DNA of 64,000 nt, taken from positions 1 to 64,000 of the forward strand of contig JAUYHF010000004.1 in NCBI GenBank assembly GCA_030690165.1, in the 5' to 3' direction. Origin of the DNA: Deltaproteobacteria bacterium (GTDB lineage Bacteria; Desulfobacterota; GWC2-55-46; UBA9637). Under the pieces are notes generated by a model. It was not told the origin of the DNA, ran no database searches, and saw nothing but the letters and a program-made list of their open reading frames with translations. The translations under genes and the position numbers were made by a program. This document shows positions 43,761 through 54,877 of this stretch, one piece after another. Each line of letters starts with the position of its first letter. Positions within the stretch are counted from its first letter, which is position 1.

Positions 43761-45494
43761 ATGGCCGTAATAAAGAAGGTTAAAAAAATAGGCGAGATTC
43801 TGGTTGACGCTGGTCTCATTACAAACGCACAGCTTGAAGATGCCTTAAATGTAAGCAAAAGGACAGGCGCCAGGCTCGGCAGGACATTAGTCAATATAGG
43901 CGTTGTAACTGAGGAAGGCATTGCCCATGCGCTTGCCCATCAATTTAATATCCCGTATGTATCATTAAGCGGGGTAATTATAGAGCCTCAGATTATTAAA
44001 CTTATACCAGAGGCCCTGGCCAGAAGATACAAGGTTATCCCGTTTACAAAAGAGGGAAATGCCATCAGGGTGGCAATGTTTGACCCCCTGGATGTATTCG
44101 CCACGGATGACCTTAAGAAGGTCAGCGGTTGTCAGATATTGCCTTCTGTGGCAACAGAACGTGATATTCAAAGGGCCATTGACCAGTATTACGGAGCGGC
44201 AGGCTCTATAGAAGAGATAGCGGGGCACATTGAAGGCGCAGAGATAGAACTTCTCAAGGGCGAGGAGGATATGCCGGAGAAGCTTGAAAGGATTGCCGGC
44301 AAGGCATCTGTTATCCAGCTTGTAAACCTTATAATATCTCAGGCCGTAGCAGAAAGGGCAAGCGATATACATATAGAGCCAAGCGGATTACGAACTGAGG
44401 CTGGAGGCCGGGATGAGGACATTTTAAGAGTGAGGATGAGGGTGGACGGTGTTCTGCATGAGATGAGCAATCTTCCTCTTAAACTGCATCCTGCTGTTTT
44501 GTCCAGGGTAAAGATACTTGGCGGATTGGATATTGCTGAAAAAAGGCTTCCCCAGGACGGAAGGTTTAATATCAAGGTCGGCAACAGCGATATTGATATA
44601 CGTCTTTCTACGCTTCCCATCATATTTGGGGAAAAGGCTGTTATGCGGCTATTGGACAAAACCTCGCTTCTCTTAAAACTTGAGGAATTGACCCCTTTCC
44701 CTGACACATTAGAGATATTAAAAAAGATGGTTAAAAAGCCGTTTGGCATGATACTCCTTACAGGTCCTACAGGAAGCGGCAAGACAACAACCGCCTATAC
44801 TATCCTCTCCATGATAAACTCCATAGACAAAAACATTGTGACTGTGGAGGATCCGGTGGAGTATAAACTGAAAATAATAAATCAGGTTCAGGTAAACACC
44901 AAGGTCGGCATAACTTTTGCAAATGCCCTGCGCCATATCCTGAGACAGGATCCTGATATTGTAATGATAGGAGAAATAAGGGACAGGGAAACCGCAGAGA
45001 TTGCCATACATGCGGCGCTCACAGGGCATCTCGTCATATCAACCATACATACCAATAATGCGGTAGGGACAATAACCCGCCTCATTGATATGGGCATAGA
45101 GCCGTTCCTTATATCTTCTGCTATCACCTGTCTTGTCGGACAGAGGTTGATAAGGGGGATATGCCAAAAATGCAAGGTTTCTTATCAGCCTTCACCGAAT
45201 ATGCTTAAAGAACTGGGCATCCCTGCTGCAGAGAAGATTCCATCATTTTACAAAGGTCAGGGGTGCGCTGCATGCAAAGGGAGCGGGCTCAAAGGCCGTC
45301 TTGGAATTTTTGAGACTCTATTGATAAATGAAGACATCAGAAAATTGATATTAGAGAAAAGCGACGCCGGCAAAATATTAGAGGCATCAATAAAACACGG
45401 TTTCAAGACGCTGCGGCATGAGGGCATAAGGGCTGTTTTAAACGGATACACAACAATAGAAGAGGTTTTGCAGGCAACGCAGGAGATAGAATAG
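43761..45494 (+). CDS. pilB: Type IV pilus assembly / type II secretion ATPase (PilB/GspE)
   Basis: This hexameric ATPase powers pilus extension or secretion from the cytoplasmic face. Residues 1 to about 150 form a GspE N-terminal domain (KKIGEILVDAGLITNAQLEDAL). The motor domain has Walker A GPTGSGKTTT, an Asp box, Walker B with DPDIVMIGEIRDRETAEIA, and His-box HAALTGHLV. The zinc-binding tetracysteine CQKC...CAAC is present. At 577 residues it is full length. pilC follows after a repeat hairpin. Confidence 0.93.
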   Translation: MAVIKKVKKIGEILVDAGLITNAQLEDALNVSKRTGARLGRTLVNIGVVTEEGIAHALAHQFNIPYVSLSGVIIEPQIIKLIPEALARRYKVIPFTKEGNAIRVAMFDPLDVFATDDLKKVSGCQILPSVATERDIQRAIDQYYGAAGSIEEIAGHIEGAEIELLKGEEDMPEKLERIAGKASVIQLVNLIISQAVAERASDIHIEPSGLRTEAGGRDEDILRVRMRVDGVLHEMSNLPLKLHPAVLSRVKILGGLDIAEKRLPQDGRFNIKVGNSDIDIRLSTLPIIFGEKAVMRLLDKTSLLLKLEELTPFPDTLEILKKMVKKPFGMILLTGPTGSGKTTTAYTILSMINSIDKNIVTVEDPVEYKLKIINQVQVNTKVGITFANALRHILRQDPDIVMIGEIRDRETAEIAIHAALTGHLVISTIHTNNAVGTITRLIDMGIEPFLISSAITCLVGQRLIRGICQKCKVSYQPSPNMLKELGIPAAEKIPSFYKGQGCAACKGSGLKGRLGIFETLLINEDIRKLILEKSDAGKILEASIKHGFKTLRHEGIRAVLNGYTTIEEVLQATQEIE

Positions 45495-45495
45495 G

Positions 45496-45571
45496 GTCAA
45501 AGAGTCAAAGGGTCAAAGATTTAAAGAAGCGAGGTTTTACTCTGACTCTTTGACTCTCTGACTCTTTGGAG
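45496..45571 (+). repeat. Tandem 8-nt repeat hairpin between pilB and pilC
   Basis: The left arm has units AGAGTCAA, AGGGTCAA and AGATTTAA. A GGTTTT loop follows, then a right arm of units TCTTTGAC and TCTCTGAC. The arms are complementary. The unit closely resembles that between ilvN and ilvC (21931-22008), about 23 kb away. It overlaps the pilC ribosome-binding site (GGAGGA). Confidence 0.75.
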
Positions 45572-45575
45572 GACT

Positions 45576-46790
45576 ATGCCATTCTTTTCATACAGGGCAA
45601 GAAACAGGACAGGGGTATTGGTTACAGGCAGGATGGAGGCTGCAACCAGGACTGCGGCTGAAACCAATATCGACAGGATGGGGCTTATACCCCTATCTGT
45701 CAAGCCTGCAAAAAAATCCATTGAACTCCCTGACATAAACCTTCTCTTTCAGACTATAACCCCGCAGGACACCATTCTCTTCAGCCGGCAGTTGGCTACA
45801 TTATTCACTGCCGGCATTCCTTTAACAAGAGCGCTGTTCACTCTGGAAACCCAACTCAGCAATAAGAAATTAACAAATATCATAAAAACCGTCAGAGAGG
45901 ATGTTGAAGGCGGGGCTACATTCGCGCAGGCCTTAAAAAAACATCCGCATATCTTTGATGAAACATATTACAGCATGGTAGAGGCCGGCGAGGCTGGCGG
46001 TATACTGGACAGTATCCTCGATAGATTGGCCGCCATGAAGGAAAGGATACAGGAGATAAATTCAAAGGTTAAGTCCGCAACGCTTTATCCCAAAATAGTT
46101 GTCGCGGCTATTTTGATAGCCGTAATTATACTTATGACATTTGTTGTTCCAAAGTTTGCAAGGCTATATTCAAATTTCAATGTGCCTCTGCCGCTTCCCA
46201 CAAGGATTCTGATTGCAATGTCAAATTTCTTTTCATCATATTGGTATCTGGCAGCCATTGCCGCTATTCTCCCCATTGTAATCTTCAAATGGTATACAAA
46301 GACCGATGCAGGCCATTACAATTGGGATAAATGGAAGCTTAACATACCAATCTTCGGCCCTTTTTCACAGAAGGCTACCATGTCCAGATTTGCAAGGGTG
46401 TTTGGCTCGCTTTATAAAAGCGGGCTGCCAATACTCCAGTCCCTTGATATAGTGTCAAGGGTGACTGATAACAGGCTTATATCCAGGGCAGTAAAGGATA
46501 TAGAGATAGACATAAGGTCTGGAAAGAGCTTGTCTGAGTTAATGGAGCAAAGCCGTCTTTTCCCCCCGATGGTTGTACAGATGGTTCGGGTTGGCGAGGA
46601 GACAGGCGCTCTTGATGAGATGCTGGAAAAGGTTGCCCAGTATTATGATCAGGAGGTTGATTATACTGTAAAAAACCTGACCACAAGCCTTGAGCCCATC
46701 CTCCTCACCGTTATATTCGGCATGGTTTTATTTCTGGCGCTTGCCATATTCCTTCCTATGTGGGACATAGTAAGTATTGTGAAGAGATGA
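45576..46790 (+). CDS. pilC: Type IV pilus / type II secretion inner-membrane protein (PilC/GspF)
   Basis: The 404-residue integral membrane protein has the GspF duplication: FSRQLATLFTAGIPLTRAL with helices at about 170-190 and 218-240, then ARVFGSLYKSGLPILQSL with the final helix at about 375-398. Each half includes the conserved Gly-Glu (VEAGEAGGILD, VGEETGALDEML). PilC is the platform that PilB turns. The sensor kinase gene begins 1 nt after its stop. Confidence 0.93.
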   Translation: MPFFSYRARNRTGVLVTGRMEAATRTAAETNIDRMGLIPLSVKPAKKSIELPDINLLFQTITPQDTILFSRQLATLFTAGIPLTRALFTLETQLSNKKLTNIIKTVREDVEGGATFAQALKKHPHIFDETYYSMVEAGEAGGILDSILDRLAAMKERIQEINSKVKSATLYPKIVVAAILIAVIILMTFVVPKFARLYSNFNVPLPLPTRILIAMSNFFSSYWYLAAIAAILPIVIFKWYTKTDAGHYNWDKWKLNIPIFGPFSQKATMSRFARVFGSLYKSGLPILQSLDIVSRVTDNRLISRAVKDIEIDIRSGKSLSELMEQSRLFPPMVVQMVRVGEETGALDEMLEKVAQYYDQEVDYTVKNLTTSLEPILLTVIFGMVLFLALAIFLPMWDIVSIVKR

Positions 46791-46791
46791 A

Positions 46792-47955
46792 ATGGAAAAA
46801 TGGCTGTCAAAGAAAAATGTCAGGCTGAGTCTGTATTTTTTCATGCCTGTATTTTTTGCCTCTTTTGCAATAGGACTCGGTCTTACAATAATTGAGGCAA
46901 TGGACAGGCTTCTGCCGGCAGGCACTATCCTGTCATCTCATAGGCAGGATATTGAATATCTGCGCTGGTATGTAAAGGTGGCAACCCTCGGAGGCGCTGC
47001 AATTGCTGTTATTACAGGTCTTTTAATTGCATTTGCCTTAAACAGGCCGCTTAAGAGGCTGGAGGATACATTAAAAAAGATTGCCGCGGGAAACATAGAG
47101 GAATTAAACTTAGACATCACAAATGAGTTTGTCTCTTTAAGCAAAACCTTTAATACCGCTATTTCAACCATAAAACAACGTCTCTTAACGGCAAAGGACA
47201 GCGCATCCGATGAAGCGGTTCATGGCTTGGAAAGATTAGAAAGATTGGCTGTGCTTGGCGGAATATCAGCCATAATCGCCCATGAAATAAAAAATCCGCT
47301 TGCATCCATAAAGGGGCTGACCCAGCTTATGGCTGAGAAGGCGGGCATGGACAGCGATGCAATAAAATACATATCTGTAATGCTTGAGGAAATAGACCGC
47401 CTGAACAAGGTGGCAGATAATCTTCTTTATCTTGCAAAACCTTCTAAAGAGGACTACAGATACTGCGATATAAGGCAGCTTTTAGACAAGGTTGCGGCTA
47501 AGGCGCTCCATGCAATAGATAAAAAAGTTGAAATATTAAAAGACTCTGATAAAGCGCCGGTAGAGATATGGATGGATAGCGATAGATTGGAAAGGGCGTT
47601 TTTAAATCTCATGATAAATGCCCTACAGTCAACCCTTGAAAATAAAGGGCAAGATTCAGGGGGAGCAGTTGCAATTACTGTTGCAAAATATGGAGATACG
47701 GTGTTTGTTAAGATAACCAACAAGGGTTCCTTTATCCCTGCACAAGGCAGGGAGCAAATATTTGAGCCTTTTTATACTACGAAAGGCAGGGGAACCGGGC
47801 TCGGCCTTGCTGTTGCAAAACATATTATATCATCCCACGGCGGAGATATAAGGGTTGAAAGCAATGAAGAAGAGACAACTTTCATTGTAGAGCTTCCGCT
47901 CACATCCCCATCCCTTGACGGGAGGGGGCAGGGGGAGGGTTTTCATCGTGCTTAA
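46792..47955 (+). CDS. Membrane sensor histidine kinase, PilS/NtrB-like
   Basis: Two membrane segments (about residues 15-37 and 62-85), a HAMP-like linker (NRPLKRLEDTLKKIAAGNIEE), a dimerisation helix with the phosphorylated His in AIIAHEIKNPLASIKGL, and an ATPase domain (NLMINALQS, GRGTGLGLAVAKHIISSHGG). Total 387 residues. Its C-terminal tail (about SPSLDGRGQGEGFHRA) is encoded by a palindromic repeat. The response-regulator gene starts inside this tail. With pilB and pilC upstream it may control pilus genes, but that is inferred from context. Confidence 0.9.
   Translation: MEKWLSKKNVRLSLYFFMPVFFASFAIGLGLTIIEAMDRLLPAGTILSSHRQDIEYLRWYVKVATLGGAAIAVITGLLIAFALNRPLKRLEDTLKKIAAGNIEELNLDITNEFVSLSKTFNTAISTIKQRLLTAKDSASDEAVHGLERLERLAVLGGISAIIAHEIKNPLASIKGLTQLMAEKAGMDSDAIKYISVMLEEIDRLNKVADNLLYLAKPSKEDYRYCDIRQLLDKVAAKALHAIDKKVEILKDSDKAPVEIWMDSDRLERAFLNLMINALQSTLENKGQDSGGAVAITVAKYGDTVFVKITNKGSFIPAQGREQIFEPFYTTKGRGTGLGLAVAKHIISSHGGDIRVESNEEETTFIVELPLTSPSLDGRGQGEGFHRA
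47906..47945 (+). repeat. Palindromic repeat at the kinase-regulator junction
   Basis: CCCATCCCTTGACGGGAGGG followed by a G-rich arm, similar to the element inside tsaB (17257-17347). It encodes the kinase's last residues, and its G-rich arm supplies the Shine-Dalgarno for the regulator start at 47948. Confidence 0.6.
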
Positions 47956-49318
47956 CCCCAACATACTCATTGTAGACGATGAATCCAGCATGAGATTTTT
48001 TCTGGCCGAGGCTATGAAAAAGGAAGGCTATTCCTTTGCAACAGCCCCGTCAGGCGAAGAGGCGCTGGAGATATATAAAAAAGAGGCCTTCCCAATTGCT
48101 ATACTTGATATAAAAATGCCGGGCATAAGCGGCATTGAAACATTTGAAAGGATGAAGCATATAAACCCCGATGTAATAGCCATACTCATTACAGCCCACG
48201 GTCTCAAGGATATTCCGATGGAACTCCTTAATAGGGGGATATACGACTACTTTACAAAGCCTTTTGATATAAAGGAGTTACGTGTTGTCATTAAAAGGGC
48301 TGTTGAGAGATGGAAATTAAAAATGGAGGTTAAGGAGCTTCATTCAAGCCTTGAAGAGAAATACAGCTTTGAAGGGATTATTGGAACGAGCCGTAAGATA
48401 AAAGAGGTTTTTAATCTTATGGAAAAAGTTAAGGATGTGGACATAAATGTTCTTATAACAGGCGAGAGCGGAACAGGAAAAGAATTGGTTGCAAAAACCC
48501 TTCATTATATGGGCGCAAGAAAGCATGGGCCTTTTGTAGAGGTAGGCTGTATTGCAATACCTGACACCTTGCTGGAGGCGGAGTTGTTCGGCTATGAAAA
48601 GGGGGCGTTCACAGGCGCGCACAGGCAAAAGGCAGGCAGGATAGAAATTGCTGACAGAGGAACGCTTTTCCTGGACGAGGTAGGCGACCTGTCTCCGTCT
48701 ACCCAGACAAAGCTTTTAAGAATAACACAGGAAAAGACATTCACAAGGATTGGCGGGACAATGCAGATTACTGTGGATTTTCGCCTTATAGCAGCCACAA
48801 ATAAGGATTTGGCAAAGGAGGTTAAAGACGGCAGATTCAGGGAAGACCTTTATTATCGTTTAAATGTAGTTTCCATTAACCTTCCGCCGCTGCGGGAGAG
48901 GAGAGAAGATATTCCACTGCTTGCAAGCCACTTTATAGATAAATACAACATATCGTTTAATAAGAATATAAAAGGTCTGTCTTCCGGGGCTATGGCGCTT
49001 TTTATGGATTATAACTGGTCCGGCAATATAAGAGAACTTGAGAATGTAATCCAGCGCGGCATGGTGCTGGCAGAAGGAGAGACCATAGCTGCTGATGTTG
49101 CGGTGAGGATGTTGAGTAAAGAAGCCGGGGTTGAAGATATGGAGATGTCCTTACGGTCAAAGACAGGACGCATAACAGAAGTGGCTGAAAAAGAGATGAT
49201 AAAAGACGCCCTCGTCAAAACAAGGTGGAAAAAGGGAGAGACGGCAATAATTTTAAATATAAGCAGAAAGAGCCTTTATAATAAAATGAAAAAATATGGA
49301 CTGCTGAAAGAGACCTGA
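47948..49318 (+). CDS. Sigma-54-dependent response regulator, NtrC family
   Basis: A 456-residue activator. The receiver domain has NILIVDDESSMRFFL and the phosphorylation Asp in AILDIKMPGISG. The AAA+ domain has GESGTGKELVAKTLH, the sigma-54 contact loop GAFTGA and the Walker B LFLDEVGDL. A Fis-type helix-turn-helix ends the protein (AIILNISRKSLYNKMKKYGL). GTG 47948 behind GGGGGAGGG is the best start. It overlaps the kinase gene. It should activate RpoN promoters, possibly for pilus genes as PilR does. Confidence 0.93.
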   Translation: MLNPNILIVDDESSMRFFLAEAMKKEGYSFATAPSGEEALEIYKKEAFPIAILDIKMPGISGIETFERMKHINPDVIAILITAHGLKDIPMELLNRGIYDYFTKPFDIKELRVVIKRAVERWKLKMEVKELHSSLEEKYSFEGIIGTSRKIKEVFNLMEKVKDVDINVLITGESGTGKELVAKTLHYMGARKHGPFVEVGCIAIPDTLLEAELFGYEKGAFTGAHRQKAGRIEIADRGTLFLDEVGDLSPSTQTKLLRITQEKTFTRIGGTMQITVDFRLIAATNKDLAKEVKDGRFREDLYYRLNVVSINLPPLRERREDIPLLASHFIDKYNISFNKNIKGLSSGAMALFMDYNWSGNIRELENVIQRGMVLAEGETIAADVAVRMLSKEAGVEDMEMSLRSKTGRITEVAEKEMIKDALVKTRWKKGETAIILNISRKSLYNKMKKYGLLKET

Positions 49319-49325
49319 CATACCC

Positions 49326-50513
49326 CTAACCCCTGCTTTCTAACCCGAAAATTCCTTTCAGCCATCTGACAACGAGTCTCCACGGCATTGCCTCAATCCT
49401 GGATACTATCTCTGCATAAAAATCTTCATACCTTTCTTCCCCTCTTATAACATTATAATATTTTTCCATAAGCAATGGTTCGGATTCCAATATTTCATAC
49501 CACAACACTGGATAAGCATAGACAATATTCCCCAGATTAGCAGCTGCCGATAGTTCCGGGTACAGTTCTGCTGCCATTACTTCCTCATACCGGCTTAAAT
49601 CAATTTTATCATCCCTTATCTTTTCTGATACGACCTTTGCGGCAATCTGGGCGCTTCTTATAGCATAGTATATGCCCTCGCCTAAAAACGGGTCAACCAG
49701 ATGGGCTGCATCGCCGACTGCTAAAACCCTTCCTTTTGCTATCTTCTGTTTTGTATCATGAAAAAATGGTATTGTCCATCCGTGCATGTCATTTATATTC
49801 AGGCCGGAAAGACTCTTTTCTCTTTTAACAAAATCGCCAAAATATTCTTTTACCCTACCTTTTACCTTATGAGAGAGGCCGGCAATACCTACTGAGAGAT
49901 TCTTGCCTTTAGGAAAAATCCATCCGTATCCATGAGGTATACAGCCGAAATCTATAAAAAGCCTTCCTCTTAGTTCTGCCAGTCTTTCCTCTTCAAAAGG
50001 GACCTCAGCCTCAATGGCCACAGCGCACATCTTTGGGCTAAGCCCCAACACATCCCTGCTGACAATACTATTGGCTCCATCAGCGCCTATCAAAATCCTT
50101 GCCCTATATATTCCCCCGGAGGTTTTAACATTTACGTAATCGCCGCATTCTTCAATGCCTGTTACCCTTTCTCCTTCCCTGACAGCAGCGCCGGCCTCTT
50201 TTGCCTTTTCCTTTAAAAGGTTGTCAAATCTATCTCTGTTTACATTATAGCCGATTGGTCTCTGGGATATGACAGGGATGTGTCTTTTTGATCTGTAGGT
50301 AAAAATAACGCCGTAGGTGATATCCTCTGCAACGGATTTGAAGTCAAATGGCAGAACCTTCTCAACCTTTAATGACAGGCATCCACCGCATGGCTTGTAC
50401 CTTGGAAATTTTTCTTTGTCAAAGGCGAGGACATTCAACCCATTCAGGGCAAGCTCATATGCGCAGGTTGCGCCGCCTGGACCAAGGCCGGCTACGATGA
50501 CATCGTATAGCAT
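49326..50513 (-). CDS. Geranylgeranyl reductase family flavoprotein
   Basis: The 395-residue FAD-dependent protein has the dinucleotide-binding start YDVIVAGLGPGGATCAYELA, the family Cys motif PRYKPCGGCLS, and the FAD-ribose motif LAVGDAAHLVDPFLGEGIYYA. Family members reduce isoprenoid chains or act as other FAD-dependent oxidoreductases, so the substrate is open. It is the last gene of a minus-strand redox and iron cluster, and is convergent with the response-regulator gene. Confidence 0.88.
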   Translation of the reverse strand: MLYDVIVAGLGPGGATCAYELALNGLNVLAFDKEKFPRYKPCGGCLSLKVEKVLPFDFKSVAEDITYGVIFTYRSKRHIPVISQRPIGYNVNRDRFDNLLKEKAKEAGAAVREGERVTGIEECGDYVNVKTSGGIYRARILIGADGANSIVSRDVLGLSPKMCAVAIEAEVPFEEERLAELRGRLFIDFGCIPHGYGWIFPKGKNLSVGIAGLSHKVKGRVKEYFGDFVKREKSLSGLNINDMHGWTIPFFHDTKQKIAKGRVLAVGDAAHLVDPFLGEGIYYAIRSAQIAAKVVSEKIRDDKIDLSRYEEVMAAELYPELSAAANLGNIVYAYPVLWYEILESEPLLMEKYYNVIRGEERYEDFYAEIVSRIEAMPWRLVVRWLKGIFGLESRG

Positions 50514-50541
50514 CTTGAATTTAGTTTTGTGTTGGGTCTGT

Positions 50542-51069
50542 TTATTCCAATTCCTTTTCTAAATTAAATTCTATGAAATCAGCCCAGAAGCCGGTATGGA
50601 TAACAGACTCTCTTTCCCATCTTAAAAGTTTGAGGTGGTTTTTTTCCATATCAAGGATCTTTCCGAGGACAGTCTTTTCATCAGGTTCGCGTGCGGCCTT
50701 AAGAAGTCCTGAATAAAAATCCACAGCTTTTTCTTCTGCCCCCATAGCAATTGTTACGGCATTTAATTCGGTTGGATTCTCTTTTAATCTTTTTGTAAGT
50801 TCATTCTCTTCCATAAATATAGGGGCGCTGCTTTTGCCAAAATCCAACGCAACAGCATCCTTATATGCAAGCCAGTTGCCGCCGATTTCTAATGACTTGC
50901 CTATCGCTGTTAATACGTTTATATGTTCAAGCTCTTCCTTGGCAAGATGGCGGAAGACAGTTTTGCCATGTTCATCCTTCAGGGTATTAGAGGCAGTAAT
51001 ATAGAAGTTATAGCCTTTAATTTCTGTGCGGACTGCTATTTTAAGATTCTCTACAGCCTTTTCCTTCAT
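50542..51069 (-). CDS. Rubrerythrin-like diiron protein without rubredoxin domain
   Basis: A 175-residue four-helix protein with diiron ligands in the usual spacing: RTEIKGYNFY, KEELEHINVL, AEEKAVDFYSGLL and DMEKNHLKLL. Rubrerythrins reduce peroxide in anaerobes, receiving electrons from a rubredoxin domain. No C-terminal Cys4 domain is present here. Two genes encoding desulforedoxin-like Cys4 modules lie about 0.3-0.7 kb upstream in the same orientation and may play that role, which is inference. The ATG at 51069 follows AAGGAGG. Confidence 0.87.
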   Translation of the reverse strand: MKEKAVENLKIAVRTEIKGYNFYITASNTLKDEHGKTVFRHLAKEELEHINVLTAIGKSLEIGGNWLAYKDAVALDFGKSSAPIFMEENELTKRLKENPTELNAVTIAMGAEEKAVDFYSGLLKAAREPDEKTVLGKILDMEKNHLKLLRWERESVIHTGFWADFIEFNLEKELE

Positions 51070-51122
51070 ATGTCCTCCTTTTCTATGAAAGCTGCAAATT
51101 ACCGGCAGCCGCAGCCTTAAGG

Positions 51123-51287
51123 CTATCGTCTTCCGGTATCGGTTCTGCCTGCCTTATCTATCTCCTTTTTCCGTTCGAGCGCCTCTCCCCTTATCTTCTC
51201 CTCACACGGATGGCATATGGTAGCCTCGGAAGGCTTGCCGCAGATACTACAGACATGTTTTTTCTCTTTCTCTTTTTTTTCTTCCAT
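51123..51287 (-). CDS. Small two-CxxC zinc-ribbon protein
   Basis: A 54-residue protein read on the minus strand from the ATG at 51287. It begins MEEKKEKEKKHVCSICGKPS and has a second pair in CHPCEEK. It continues as a charged helix to a TAG at 51123. The four cysteines suit zinc or iron binding. A GGTGAG precedes the start. It is short, but the reading frame is supported by the paired CxxC motifs and by its position in a gap otherwise empty for 270 nt. Confidence 0.7.
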   Translation of the reverse strand: MEEKKEKEKKHVCSICGKPSEATICHPCEEKIRGEALERKKEIDKAGRTDTGRR

Positions 51288-51338
51288 ATTTTCTCACCTC
51301 TGTAATTAAGTTTTTATACAGACTGTATGCGTATCTAC

Positions 51339-51602
51339 TTATGATGCTGTGTATAGCCTCATCTTTTTATTGCAGCAGATTGGCTGTAAATTTTCCCCGC
51401 CTTTAATTACCATAAGCTCGCTGCCACACACGGAACATACATACACATGGTTTATAGTCTTAAGCTGAACCATCTCTGTATTACAGCAGACCGGCAGCAG
51501 GCTGCCTCTGCCGCCCCTTATAACAGAGAGTTCAGCGCCGCATACAGGGCATCTGTAAACCCGGCCCAAGGATATTACCCCGAGATTATTACCTGATTTC
51601 AT
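51339..51602 (-). CDS. Tandem desulforedoxin-like protein (two Cys4 modules)
   Basis: The 87-residue protein has two similar modules. The first reads CPVCGAELSVIRGG...CCNTEM, the second CSVCGSELMVIKGG...CCNKKM. The C-x2-C then C-C pattern is that of desulforedoxin and neelaredoxin N-terminal domains, which hold a rubredoxin-like iron centre; zinc is also possible. The ATG at 51602 overlaps the upstream gene's end by 14 nt; a TTG at 51614 is an alternative. The modules are clearly related to the single module in the preceding gene, so tandem duplication is likely. Confidence 0.83.
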   Translation of the reverse strand: MKSGNNLGVISLGRVYRCPVCGAELSVIRGGRGSLLPVCCNTEMVQLKTINHVYVCSVCGSELMVIKGGENLQPICCNKKMRLYTAS

Positions 51603-51792
51603 CTGTTTTCGCAACTAAAGCCATATCTCTGTTGCAGCACTTCGGCTCCATCACGCCGATGCCGCCCTTAGTAACCATAACCATAGCCCCGCATACAGCG
51701 CAGTGGTATGCTCTGCCTACATGTATTGTCCATTCATTTGTCCAATCATCAACAGACCATTCAGCGTCTGCAAGACCTGTCTCCTCTGCCAT
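51589..51792 (-). CDS. Desulforedoxin-like protein (single Cys4 module)
   Basis: A 67-residue protein. An acidic, Trp-rich N-terminus (EWSVDDWTNEWTIHVGRAYH) precedes one module CAVCGAMVMVTKGG...CCNRDM. The ATG at 51792 behind AGGAGGG is better than the upstream in-frame codon at 51843. The module probably binds iron or zinc through four cysteines. It overlaps the tandem-module gene and follows the MidA-like gene by 14 nt. Confidence 0.83.
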   Translation of the reverse strand: MAEETGLADAEWSVDDWTNEWTIHVGRAYHCAVCGAMVMVTKGGIGVMEPKCCNRDMALVAKTDEIR

Positions 51793-51806
51793 AATCCCTC
51801 CTGCCC

Positions 51807-52955
51807 TTACAGCGTATATTTCAAATCCTTGAAACTTAGGCATTTAAGCGCCGGATTTTCTACGCCTTTATGCTGGATGAGAACCTTGAAATCGTCCCCC
51901 ATGCCTCCCGGAAGCGCCAGTTCCTTAATCCCTTGATTCCATTTCAATGTATCTATATCATTGATGCCGATTTCCGCTACTTCTTTCAATTCGTTCCACA
52001 CCCCGATCCCCGTAAGGAAATAAAACTGTGTCGTGAATCCGGTAACCTCCAAACCGGCCTCTCTGCCTGCTAATGCGAGGCTTGTAAAATCAACCTTTGA
52101 TGTTATATCCTGATAGCCGACCCTCTGATAAGGGTTATCGCTCATTGTGTGTCTGTAATAACATTGGATGCCCCCGCCCCTATCTGGATGAAAGAGTTCT
52201 TTTGCGGGAAGACCGTAGTCAATTGTAACAACAAATCCCTTATCAATCAATGCGCCAGCTTTTTTAATCCAGTTCATTGCCCTTAGATTTACCTCTGCGG
52301 TCTGCCCATGCAGAAGCCTTATCCCAAGCCTTTCAAGGTATGCGCTGATTGCAGGGTCTGACAGATCTCCGACTGTTTCTGTAAACCCGCTGTCCTCCAC
52401 ATAGACATAGATTTCCTTTAAACCGTCTGCCTCAATAACGCGATGGATAGGGAATGCGTCAATAAGCTCATTGGAGATAATACAGCCTGTGATACCTGGC
52501 TCTATCTCTTCAATGGCAGAATGGCATGAAAACTCTTCTCTCCGGTCTTTTTCTATCAGGTCTTTTATCAGGGCAGGATTTATATCAACAAGCTTAAACT
52601 CAACAGCGCTGTAAAATTCCTTGAACAACTCCTTGATTGTTCTGCTTATCTGAAATGAAAGCCCTCCACCTCCAGCGCCGGCCTCAACGATTGTAAACAG
52701 CATGGGAGAACCCATTATCTCCCACATCTCTTTAAGCTGTATTGCAATCAGCCTGCCGAATACAGGGCTTATGTCAACATTCGTAAGATAATCGCCTTCT
52801 TTTCCCCATCTTGCGCGGCCGGAGGTATAATATCCCTTGTCAGACCAGTAAAGGGCAGTATCCATAAATTCGGCAAAGGTTATCTTTTCTTTTTCCTGTA
52901 TCCGTCTTTTTATTTCAGAAATGAGCTCAGGATGACCAGAGAAGTTATCAGACAC
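51807..52955 (-). CDS. MidA/NDUFAF7-type SAM-dependent methyltransferase
   Basis: The 382-residue protein has the COG1565 pattern: [40 protein letters not shown], the SAM-binding [29 protein letters not shown] and [19 protein letters not shown]. The mitochondrial relative NDUFAF7 methylates an arginine in complex I during assembly; bacterial roles are mostly unknown. The best start is GTG 52955 with GGAG upstream; an ATG at 53000 lacks a ribosome-binding site. Its leader would carry the large inverted repeat at 53013-53137. Confidence 0.86.
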
Positions 52956-53012
52956 TGTTTGCTCCAAATACAACAAAGAAGGAAAAATACCCAAACACAT
53001 TTATTTTTTTGG

Positions 53013-53137
53013 TAAACTGGCAAGTTGTCTGCCAGACGAGGCAGCGGACAATTTTTGCGACAAGCCGTATGTTCACCGATACGGTGAGGAGCAAAAATTG
53101 TCCGATAACGAAGTATGGCAGACAACTTGCCAGTTTA
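53013..53137. repeat. 125-bp nested inverted repeat
   Basis: The outer arms are 22-bp perfect complements (53013-53034 with 53116-53137). The inner arms are 14-bp perfect complements (53045-53058 with 53091-53104). The apical hairpin has CCGTAT (53065-53070) with ATACGG (53079-53084). It fills the gap between the cytochrome b5-like and MidA-like genes. It could be a MITE or a structured leader RNA. Confidence 0.85.
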
Positions 53138-53139
53138 TC

Positions 53140-53376
53140 TCAGTCTTCCAGTATGCCGACCTTAACAACACCCTCAAATACCTCTTCTCCGTGGGGGGCA
53201 TTGTCAATCTCAGAAGTTAAATCAACACTGGCCGAGTGGGATTCAAAATGATTGCCATCTATCCAGTATAGGTTATCAGTTACATCGTACACAATACCGT
53301 TATACGCTATATAGGCAGGCCTTCCCTCTTTGCCGTCAAACTTTTCTATATCTTTTCTGGAGAACTTTTTTTCCAT
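53140..53376 (-). CDS. Cytochrome b5-like heme-binding domain protein
   Basis: A 78-residue single-domain protein: FSRKDIEKFDGKEGRPAYIA, then YDVTDNLYWIDGNHFESHSASVDLTSEI and APHGEEVFEGVVKVG. The two histidines in the GNHFESH segment are candidate heme ligands, matching small bacterial cytochrome b5 proteins that read WxxGxHxxHxAGxDLT. Here Ser-Ala-Ser stands where AG is common. Likely a cytoplasmic electron carrier. Starts 14 nt after the ferritin-like gene. Confidence 0.83.
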   Translation of the reverse strand: MEKKFSRKDIEKFDGKEGRPAYIAYNGIVYDVTDNLYWIDGNHFESHSASVDLTSEIDNAPHGEEVFEGVVKVGILED

Positions 53377-53390
53377 TTCAGGCTAACCCT

Positions 53391-53816
53391 TTACTTTCGT
53401 ATCCCCAGGGTTGTCTCCCATGTGTCGGCATGGTCTTCTTCGTCAGAGAGTATCTGTTCCAGCATAAGCCTTGTTGCCGGATCGCCCTCTTTTTCACACA
53501 GCTTGATATGTTCCTTATACCGCTTTATAGCGCCGTTTTCCGCGGCAAGGTCATCCTTTATCATCTTTTTAAGCTCTCCGCCCCTTATCACCTCAGTAGG
53601 CTTCTGCACCGGAACGCCTCCAAGATATACAATCTTCTCTGCCAGCATCTCAGCATGTTTCATTTCATCAATGGAGGTTTTCTTGAATATATCAATCACT
53701 GCCGGACTTTCAAGCCCCTCTGCCTCATAGTGATGCCCCATATACTGGACAATAGCGGCCAACTCAAATGCCCTGTCCAGATTTAACGCATCTATAATCT
53801 TTTTGCTCATGTTCAA
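53391..53816 (-). CDS. Ferritin-like / bacterioferritin-like protein
   Basis: The 141-residue four-helix protein has diiron-type ligands: ELAAIVQYMGHHYEAEG, DEMKHAEMLAEKIVYLGG, AENGAIKRYKEHIKLCEKEGD and SDEEDHADTWETTLG. It most resembles small bacterioferritin-type proteins, which store or oxidise iron. The start is the ATG at 53816 (or the second Met two codons on) behind AAGGAGG. It is the first gene of the minus-strand redox and iron cluster. Confidence 0.88.
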   Translation of the reverse strand: MNMSKKIIDALNLDRAFELAAIVQYMGHHYEAEGLESPAVIDIFKKTSIDEMKHAEMLAEKIVYLGGVPVQKPTEVIRGGELKKMIKDDLAAENGAIKRYKEHIKLCEKEGDPATRLMLEQILSDEEDHADTWETTLGIRK

Positions 53817-53921: not shown

Positions 53922-54773
53922 CTATCCTTTCTTTTCCCTTTCCAATATGGGATAGGCTATATTTGCAATATACGAATTTATGCGCTTAAGATTTGTCAGG
54001 ACATCCAGATGAATGGCGCTTGTATCTATAGATTCTTTTAAGCCGAGATGAAGGCGGTTTATATGCGCCTGCCTTAAATCCCTTTCTATCTCGCCAAGTC
54101 TTGTTTTATGCCTTAATAATTGATGGGCAAGCTCAACATCCCCGCTTGTAAACGCCGATACGCCGAGCTCAAAATTTTCCATAACCTTTTGATGAAATTC
54201 CAGGATCTCCTTTAATCCATCACGGGAAAAGGAGAGTTGATTTTTTATCTTTTTCTTTGCAAGCTCCATAAGATTTTTATCTATCACATCGCCGATATTT
54301 TCAAGATTGTTTGTAAATGTGATTATCTCCATCTCACGTCGCGCCTGCTCTTCAGTCAAACCCTCCTGAGACAGTTTTGTAAGGTAAAGCTTTATCTCCC
54401 TGTCAAGTATATCCACATCGTCGTCTCTTTCCTCTATTTTTTCCTGGAGCGCCGTATTATTGCTTTTAAAAACCTCTATGCTCTGCTTCAGCATATCCTG
54501 CACGATGTCCGCCATCCTGAGCGCCGGAAAACGATTGGGCATGACCCTTACCCACCAGCCGGACGAGTTGGCTTTAGCCCCTTTTTTCCTGAATGCAATT
54601 ATCTCTGGGGGGGTCATTGATTCATTACCGGGACAGAATGGGCATACAGAATGGTTTTTTGTAATTACAGCCTGGGCTTCATGTTCATGCTGAAAATCCG
54701 AGGGCCTTCTGGCCCTTTCAGGGGACATTATAACCCATTCCCTTGTTATGAGGTCTTTTCTTAATTCAGACAT
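53922..54773 (-). CDS. Hybrid protein: GalT N-terminal part fused to PhoU-like domain
   Basis: Residues 1 to about 84 (from ATG 54773) read as the start of galactose-1-phosphate uridylyltransferase: SELRKDLITREWVIMSPERA, HSVCPFCPGNESMTPPEI with zinc-type cysteines, and WVRVMPNRFPAL. Without a break in frame, RMADIVQDMLKQSIEVF then begins a PhoU-like helical domain as found at the C-terminus of Na/Pi cotransporters, continuing to residue 283. The catalytic HPH region of GalT is absent. The join, at about nucleotide 54521, looks like an in-frame deletion fusing two genes, or an assembly chimera. Starts behind GGAG. Confidence 0.8.
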   Translation of the reverse strand: MSELRKDLITREWVIMSPERARRPSDFQHEHEAQAVITKNHSVCPFCPGNESMTPPEIIAFRKKGAKANSSGWWVRVMPNRFPALRMADIVQDMLKQSIEVFKSNNTALQEKIEERDDDVDILDREIKLYLTKLSQEGLTEEQARREMEIITFTNNLENIGDVIDKNLMELAKKKIKNQLSFSRDGLKEILEFHQKVMENFELGVSAFTSGDVELAHQLLRHKTRLGEIERDLRQAHINRLHLGLKESIDTSAIHLDVLTNLKRINSYIANIAYPILEREKKG

Positions 54774-54783
54774 CCGTCGCTTC

Positions 54784-54877
54784 GCTCCATTGAAAATTGC
54801 AAAGTGCAAAATGAAAATTGTAGATTGTATTTTTTAATTTTGCATTCTGCATTTTGCAATCTTCAATTTGCAATTTT
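54784..54877 (-). repeat. Tandem 7-nt repeat hairpin upstream of the GalT-PhoU gene
   Basis: One arm has units ATTGCAA, AGTGCAA, AATGAAA and ATTGTAG. A TTTTTTAA centre follows. The other arm has units TTTTGCA, TTCTGCA, ATCTTCA and ATTTGCA. Both arms show a clear period of 7 and are complementary over most of their length. Confidence 0.78.

Follow-up and report, generated by a model that had tools for sequence, protein, structure and literature searches.

The stretch of DNA analysed here, 64,000 nucleotides long (the window) and part of contig 4 of a 2.2 Mb genome in 70 contigs, carries on its minus strand, at 49326-53816, eight genes for redox and iron proteins which are kept together across nearly the whole of a class of uncultured bacteria from groundwater and sediment. 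The order mBfr-[Rdx or cb5]-MidA-[sDSR-tDSR]-CxxC-RBR-GGR, in which Rdx is a stand-alone rubredoxin and the other names are those listed below, recurs across the 53 loci that were fetched, which represent 12 families, and persists at 38-50% protein identity although the flanks change. Because both the gene set and its order are kept across nearly the whole class, the genes probably form one working iron and oxygen-handling unit. An earlier note on this DNA had suggested a redox and iron set and had named neighbourhood conservation beforehand as its check, and the lack of a repeated association as its refutation; the association is indeed repeated, in support of a functional set. The eight same-direction genes lie where that note had placed them, and its labels agree with the Pfam, NCBIfam and PDB matches from which ours are taken, its "ferritin-like" gene being refined to a predicted mini-bacterioferritin. 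Likely start codons were judged from start-codon context and from relatives. The features are as follows:

53391-53816, minus strand: mBfr, predicted mini-bacterioferritin; likely start ATG at 53810; PF00210 110.7 bits; PDB 9qq4 198 bits, E=6e-58
53140-53376, minus strand: cb5, small soluble cytochrome b5-like protein; PF00173 22.9 bits; 6nzx E=3e-19
53013-53137, no strand: palindromic interspersed repeat, an inverted repeat with six genomic copies, outside the conserved cluster
51807-53000, minus strand: MidA/NDUFAF7-family methyltransferase; likely start GTG at about 52955; PF02636 183 bits
51589-51843, minus strand: sDSR, single desulforedoxin-like Cys4 protein; likely start ATG at 51792, after AGGAGG; PF06397 27.8 bits
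51339-51614, minus strand: tDSR, tandem desulforedoxin-like protein with two Cys4 modules; likely start ATG at 51602, overlapping sDSR; PF06397 54.2 bits
51123-51287, minus strand: CxxC, 54-aa CxxC-x8-CxxC mini-protein; core member conserved in the class, of no known family
50542-51069, minus strand: RBR, predicted class-specific ferritin-like diiron protein; PF02915 52.6 bits
49326-50513, minus strand: GGR, geranylgeranyl-reductase-family flavoprotein; TIGR02032 246 bits

In pairwise comparisons with same-family relatives, all eight genes gave dN of 0.02-0.32, whereas dS, where an estimate was possible, was about 0.7 or more; the 54-aa CxxC gene gave dN of 0.02-0.08 against its closest relatives. 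Since dN lies far below dS in each, all eight are very likely real genes, and all eight are under purifying selection.

Occupancy was counted only at loci whose contig permits testing, and the loci come from related genomes, so that the counts are not independent samples. The core comprises CxxC (52/54 loci), MidA (44/47), mBfr (35/44) and GGR (42/49), and RBR orthologues are present in nearly all of the 59 class genomes. MidA, which had been taken for an unexpected bystander in the earlier note, thus turns out to be a constant member of the core. The carriers are more variable: Rdx is found at 33 of 47 loci, cb5 at 6 of 44, sDSR at 13 of 50 and tDSR at 13 of 51. Wherever Rdx or cb5 occurs, it occupies the slot adjoining mBfr, and no locus has the two together. 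Spacing is tight (median gap 3 nt for RBR-GGR and 49 nt for CxxC-RBR across class loci), and the pairs mBfr-cb5, sDSR-tDSR and CxxC-RBR are still together in one family, f2, whose cluster is otherwise dispersed. Downstream of GGR, a hemerythrin gene (23/36 loci) and a PDZ/heavy-metal-resistance protein gene (22/44) are frequent, for example at L071:12351-12845 and L073:5728-6714; neither follows the cluster in the window. One could argue that this order is merely inherited through slow rearrangement and that the genes have separate functions, as the arrangement is found in one class only and the counts come from related genomes. Against this, the genes flanking the cluster are not kept across families, the gaps within it are tiny or overlapping, and the accessory genes exchange within a fixed slot. 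Moreover, two near-complete genomes, G032 (97% complete) and G040 (94%), have none of the three genes mBfr, RBR orthologue and MidA but keep NuoD, and the same joint absence, again with NuoD kept, is seen in the less complete G055. With flanks that are not conserved and a set that is absent together, physical linkage alone is a very improbable explanation.

We therefore consider the cluster, with slightly less than even confidence, to be one class-conserved unit for handling iron and oxygen species, made up of two sub-modules and a methyltransferase. In the first, Rdx or cb5 would serve as a dedicated one-electron carrier that reduces the haem or core of mBfr, a reduction that would control iron storage and release. 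In the second, the GGR-type flavoprotein would feed electrons, together with CxxC, to the diiron site of RBR, which would reduce peroxide or O2. The DSR proteins may be optional extra carriers, and MidA may methylate a protein, either its classical target NuoD, at the arginine next to the quinone site, or one encoded in the cluster. Rdx and cb5 are assigned to mBfr, and GGR and CxxC to RBR, on the basis of adjacency and the pairs kept in f2. Conservation, order, ligand and cofactor residues, selection and co-absence are observed, and every electron-transfer step, the substrate, the O2 link and the methylation target are inferred; the order under changing flanks, the tiny gaps, the invariant mBfr and RBR ligands, the slot swap, the co-absence with MidA, the hemerythrin downstream and the f20 neighbourhood described below all speak for the proposal. 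Several observations weigh against it. At four loci neither rubredoxin, cb5 nor DSR lies beside the core, and the nearest solved relatives of RBR, 2fzf and 1vjx, are structural-genomics proteins without assigned function. GGR-family enzymes are known as prenyl reductases and are not known as reductases of diiron proteins. Finally, the palindrome between cb5 and MidA may split the transcript in the window.

The first sub-module bears on a question from recent work. The mini-bacterioferritin family was described in 2026, in a paper that calls unknown both what the protein does and which redox carriers reduce the iron core (PMC13168243). Its signature consists of the ferroxidase ligands E18, E51, H54, E93, E126 and H129, the haem ligand Met52, His29 and Gly34, without N- or C-terminal extensions (PMC13168243). 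All of these residues are invariant in 21 class sequences, as is Arg15 in the class alignment, and the proteins are about 139-149 aa long without terminal extensions, which points to membership of this family. With the mBfr of 'Ca. Methanoperedens carboxydivorans' (PDB 9qq4; PMC13168243), the 139-aa protein aligns end to end at 198 bits and shares the ferroxidase ligands, haem Met52, His29 and Gly34, and the lack of extensions. What differs is the setting, here a conserved cluster with candidate electron carriers, whereas PMC13168243 describes no gene neighbourhood and names no carriers.

In most of the class the slot beside mBfr holds Rdx, a rubredoxin of the rubrerythrin C-terminal type (PF21349), which adjoins mBfr and not RBR. 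The window locus is without Rdx, and in the taxonomic order to which the window's genome belongs cb5 occupies this slot. The Pfam score of cb5 is weak (PF00173, 22.9 bits against a cut-off of 23.7); its match to a solved cytochrome b5, 6nzx, has E=3e-19, and candidate haem histidines lie in its GNH and APHG motifs. PF21349 is matched just twice in the window's own genome, once by a domain fused to a half-rubrerythrin and once by a small open reading frame beside an Fe-S oxidoreductase-like gene. On contig 59 of the same genome, L231:2949-3593 encodes a half-size rubrerythrin domain which a long linker joins to a rubredoxin domain at the C-terminus; the six PF02915 matches examined in this genome included no full classical rubrerythrin. 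Haem-binding ferritins encoded beside a small one-electron carrier are familiar from the Desulfovibrio desulfuricans bacterioferritin with rubredoxin-2 and from Bfr with Bfd. As in those systems, the gene of a predicted haem-type ferritin here adjoins a small carrier gene. Unlike them, mBfr is of the 12-mer type by family, the carrier is a rubrerythrin-type rubredoxin or a cytochrome b5, and the operon is larger, adding the diiron protein RBR, a flavoprotein and MidA. The role of Bfd is cited in PMC13168243.

The second sub-module is centred on RBR. Its candidate diiron ligands, E16, E46, H49, E112, E142 and H145, are invariant in 35 sequences and make up the two E...ExxH pairs of a ferritin-like diiron protein, and a structure model gives four long helices (pLDDT 87.5). 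The protein falls within the wider PF02915 family; in a profile search of the PDB its nearest solved relatives were 2fzf and 1vjx, and no classical rubrerythrin chain appeared at E<=0.001. The earlier note had called it a rubrerythrin without its rubredoxin domain. The absence of the domain stands, as the protein stops after the ferritin-like domain and has no PF21349 match, but profile scores and PDB matches led us to reject a degraded or truncated rubrerythrin, and RBR is a distinct, class-specific family of predicted diiron proteins. One-domain rubrerythrins have been found clustered with DUF3501 and an Fe-S oxidoreductase (PMC5114695). The present cluster shares with them a diiron ferritin-like protein without a rubredoxin domain and conserved redox neighbours, and differs in that RBR belongs to another family and its neighbours are GGR, CxxC and MidA.

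In the wiring first put forward for this locus, free desulforedoxin-like modules stand in for a lost rubredoxin domain and donate electrons to RBR. Both DSR proteins are encoded upstream of RBR and have complete Cys4 sites (CxxC...CC, invariant in the alignment); PF06397 matches once in sDSR and over two stretches in tDSR (cut-off 23), and the NCBIfam TIGR00319 cut-off is reached by tDSR only. Rubrerythrin-like proteins with N-terminal Cys-rich ribbons, as found in f20, a family outside the class (L271-L278), would also suit this wiring, but those ribbons are CxxC-CxxC and not of the desulforedoxin type. Since DSR genes are present at only about a quarter of loci while RBR, CxxC and GGR persist, the DSR proteins cannot be the obligatory donor of RBR, and RBR is no rubrerythrin relative by PDB profile search. 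A stand-alone rubredoxin, the PF21349 protein, does exist at most loci, but it adjoins mBfr. Donation by the desulforedoxin-like proteins is thus decidedly improbable, and they are better regarded as accessory.

The proposed partners of RBR are CxxC, in which the four Cys, R33, E35 and A36 are invariant, and GGR, which scores far above the TIGR02032 cut-off of 158.8 bits, has 3oz2 as its best fold match and contains an FAD-binding region. These are features of the geranylgeranyl reductase family (TIGR02032; PDB 3oz2); what differs is that GGR nearly abuts a diiron gene, in a class reported to use ubiquinone, whose tail is rarely saturated. A CGGC disulfide peculiar to GGR was considered and rejected because out-of-class GGR proteins carry CGGC as well and the f2 copy has CGGA. 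At L081 / L206 (G017 contig 58) the GGR gene is split over two frames, a MAG error or a broken copy. Literature searches found no described biochemistry for a flavoprotein-diiron pair of the GGR-RBR kind.

The place of MidA raises the possibility of a quite different, respiratory function, in which GGR, partnered by the diiron protein RBR, would modify a prenyl chain or quinone, MidA would dimethylate NuoD and mBfr would supply iron, for assembly of the respiratory chain and not for oxygen defence. MidA matches PF02636 (183 bits) and, in the PDB, 4f3n, 1zkd and the NDUFAF7 homologue 5ztz. In mitochondria, NDUFAF7 symmetrically dimethylates an arginine of NuoD/NDUFS2 (PMC3829151). NuoD is present in 56/59 class genomes, its motif DIGYLHRGTEK retains that arginine, and complex I therefore stays a possible target of MidA; GGR, for its part, belongs to TIGR02032 and has the fold of 3oz2, and ubiquinone synthesis is reported for the class (PMC13386864). 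However, saturated tails are reported almost exclusively for menaquinones (PMC13386864), and mBfr, Rdx or cb5 and hemerythrin are left unexplained. MidA, normally single-copy in class genomes and located at the cluster, also appears to track the cluster and not complex I, because G032, G040 and G055, a small sample, are without it yet keep NuoD. MidA shares with NDUFAF7 (PMC3829151; PDB 5ztz) the PF02636 domain, a SAM-binding region and a genomic NuoD target arginine, and differs in being fixed in a diiron and iron cluster and absent with it where complex I is kept. In f20, MidA is grouped with an FMN reductase, DJ-1/PfpI, a rubredoxin, the rubrerythrin-like protein with ribbons and a cytochrome b5 domain fused to a 2-oxoacid oxidoreductase subunit, a neighbourhood that strengthens its link to redox proteins. 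On balance we regard the quinone and complex I module as rather unlikely. A combination, in which methylation by MidA and the flavoprotein-diiron pair would protect or mature the respiratory chain while mBfr with Rdx or cb5 would be the iron source, strikes us as distinctly doubtful; if true, bacterial MidA would act in iron and oxygen biology and not as a generic complex I assembly factor.

The relatives that carry the cluster are uncultured 'Deltaproteobacteria' MAGs, many of them from groundwater, and the class is very probably GTDB GWC2-55-46, in which Deltaproteobacteria bacterium GWC2_42_11 has been placed (PMC9751292). GWC2-55-46 is reported to have the ubiquinone pathway only in its O2-independent form and to lack a menaquinone pathway, and its members have been proposed to possess high-affinity O2 oxidases (PMC13386864); outside Pseudomonadota, these are reportedly the first bacteria whose ubiquinone pathway has experimental support. 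No ubiquinone genes were seen among the scanned window ORFs, the rest of the genome not having been searched for them. COX1-family genes give strong matches in most class genomes and a weak one in the window's own (E=1.5e-8). In a 247-genome sample of the phylum, the RBR profile scored at least 243 bits in the class against at most 100 bits elsewhere. The cluster was absent at 20 fetched out-of-class RBR-like loci of this sample and at the out-of-class mBfr-like loci with fetched flanks. It was also missing from the GGR-like and MidA loci fetched from the rest of the phylum, the exceptions being the f20 neighbourhood, which is of a different kind, and L286, where MidA and an RBR-like gene are adjacent. 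Our literature searches turned up no account of this cluster.

The palindrome between cb5 and MidA, which the earlier note had passed over, is an inverted repeat of about 125-130 bp, present in six copies genome-wide at 85-100% identity, and its RNA hairpin has a predicted energy of -68.7 kcal/mol (z=-11.8), features that suggest a MITE-like or REP-like element. A promoter consensus scan gave no excess over shuffles, and Rfam no matches; by eye only, sigma-70-like promoters are visible upstream of mBfr, with no known operator recognised. Beyond the cluster, the ORF at 53922-54809 begins as a galactose-1-phosphate uridylyltransferase, continues into a PhoU domain and looks like an internal deletion that fused two genes, as relatives have two full-length genes there, of about 340 and 540 aa. 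On the other side, at 43761-49318 and convergent with the cluster, lie genes for a type II secretion/pilus ATPase and inner-membrane proteins and, after these, for a histidine kinase and a sigma-54 response regulator.

Rdx and cb5, in their fixed slot, represent genetically linked candidate carriers for mBfr, which makes the redox-carrier question of PMC13168243 directly testable. The cluster also supplies the GGR-RBR flavoprotein-diiron pair, whose biochemistry we did not find described. Finally, the MidA family, known mainly from mitochondrial complex I, gains a conserved iron and diiron context.

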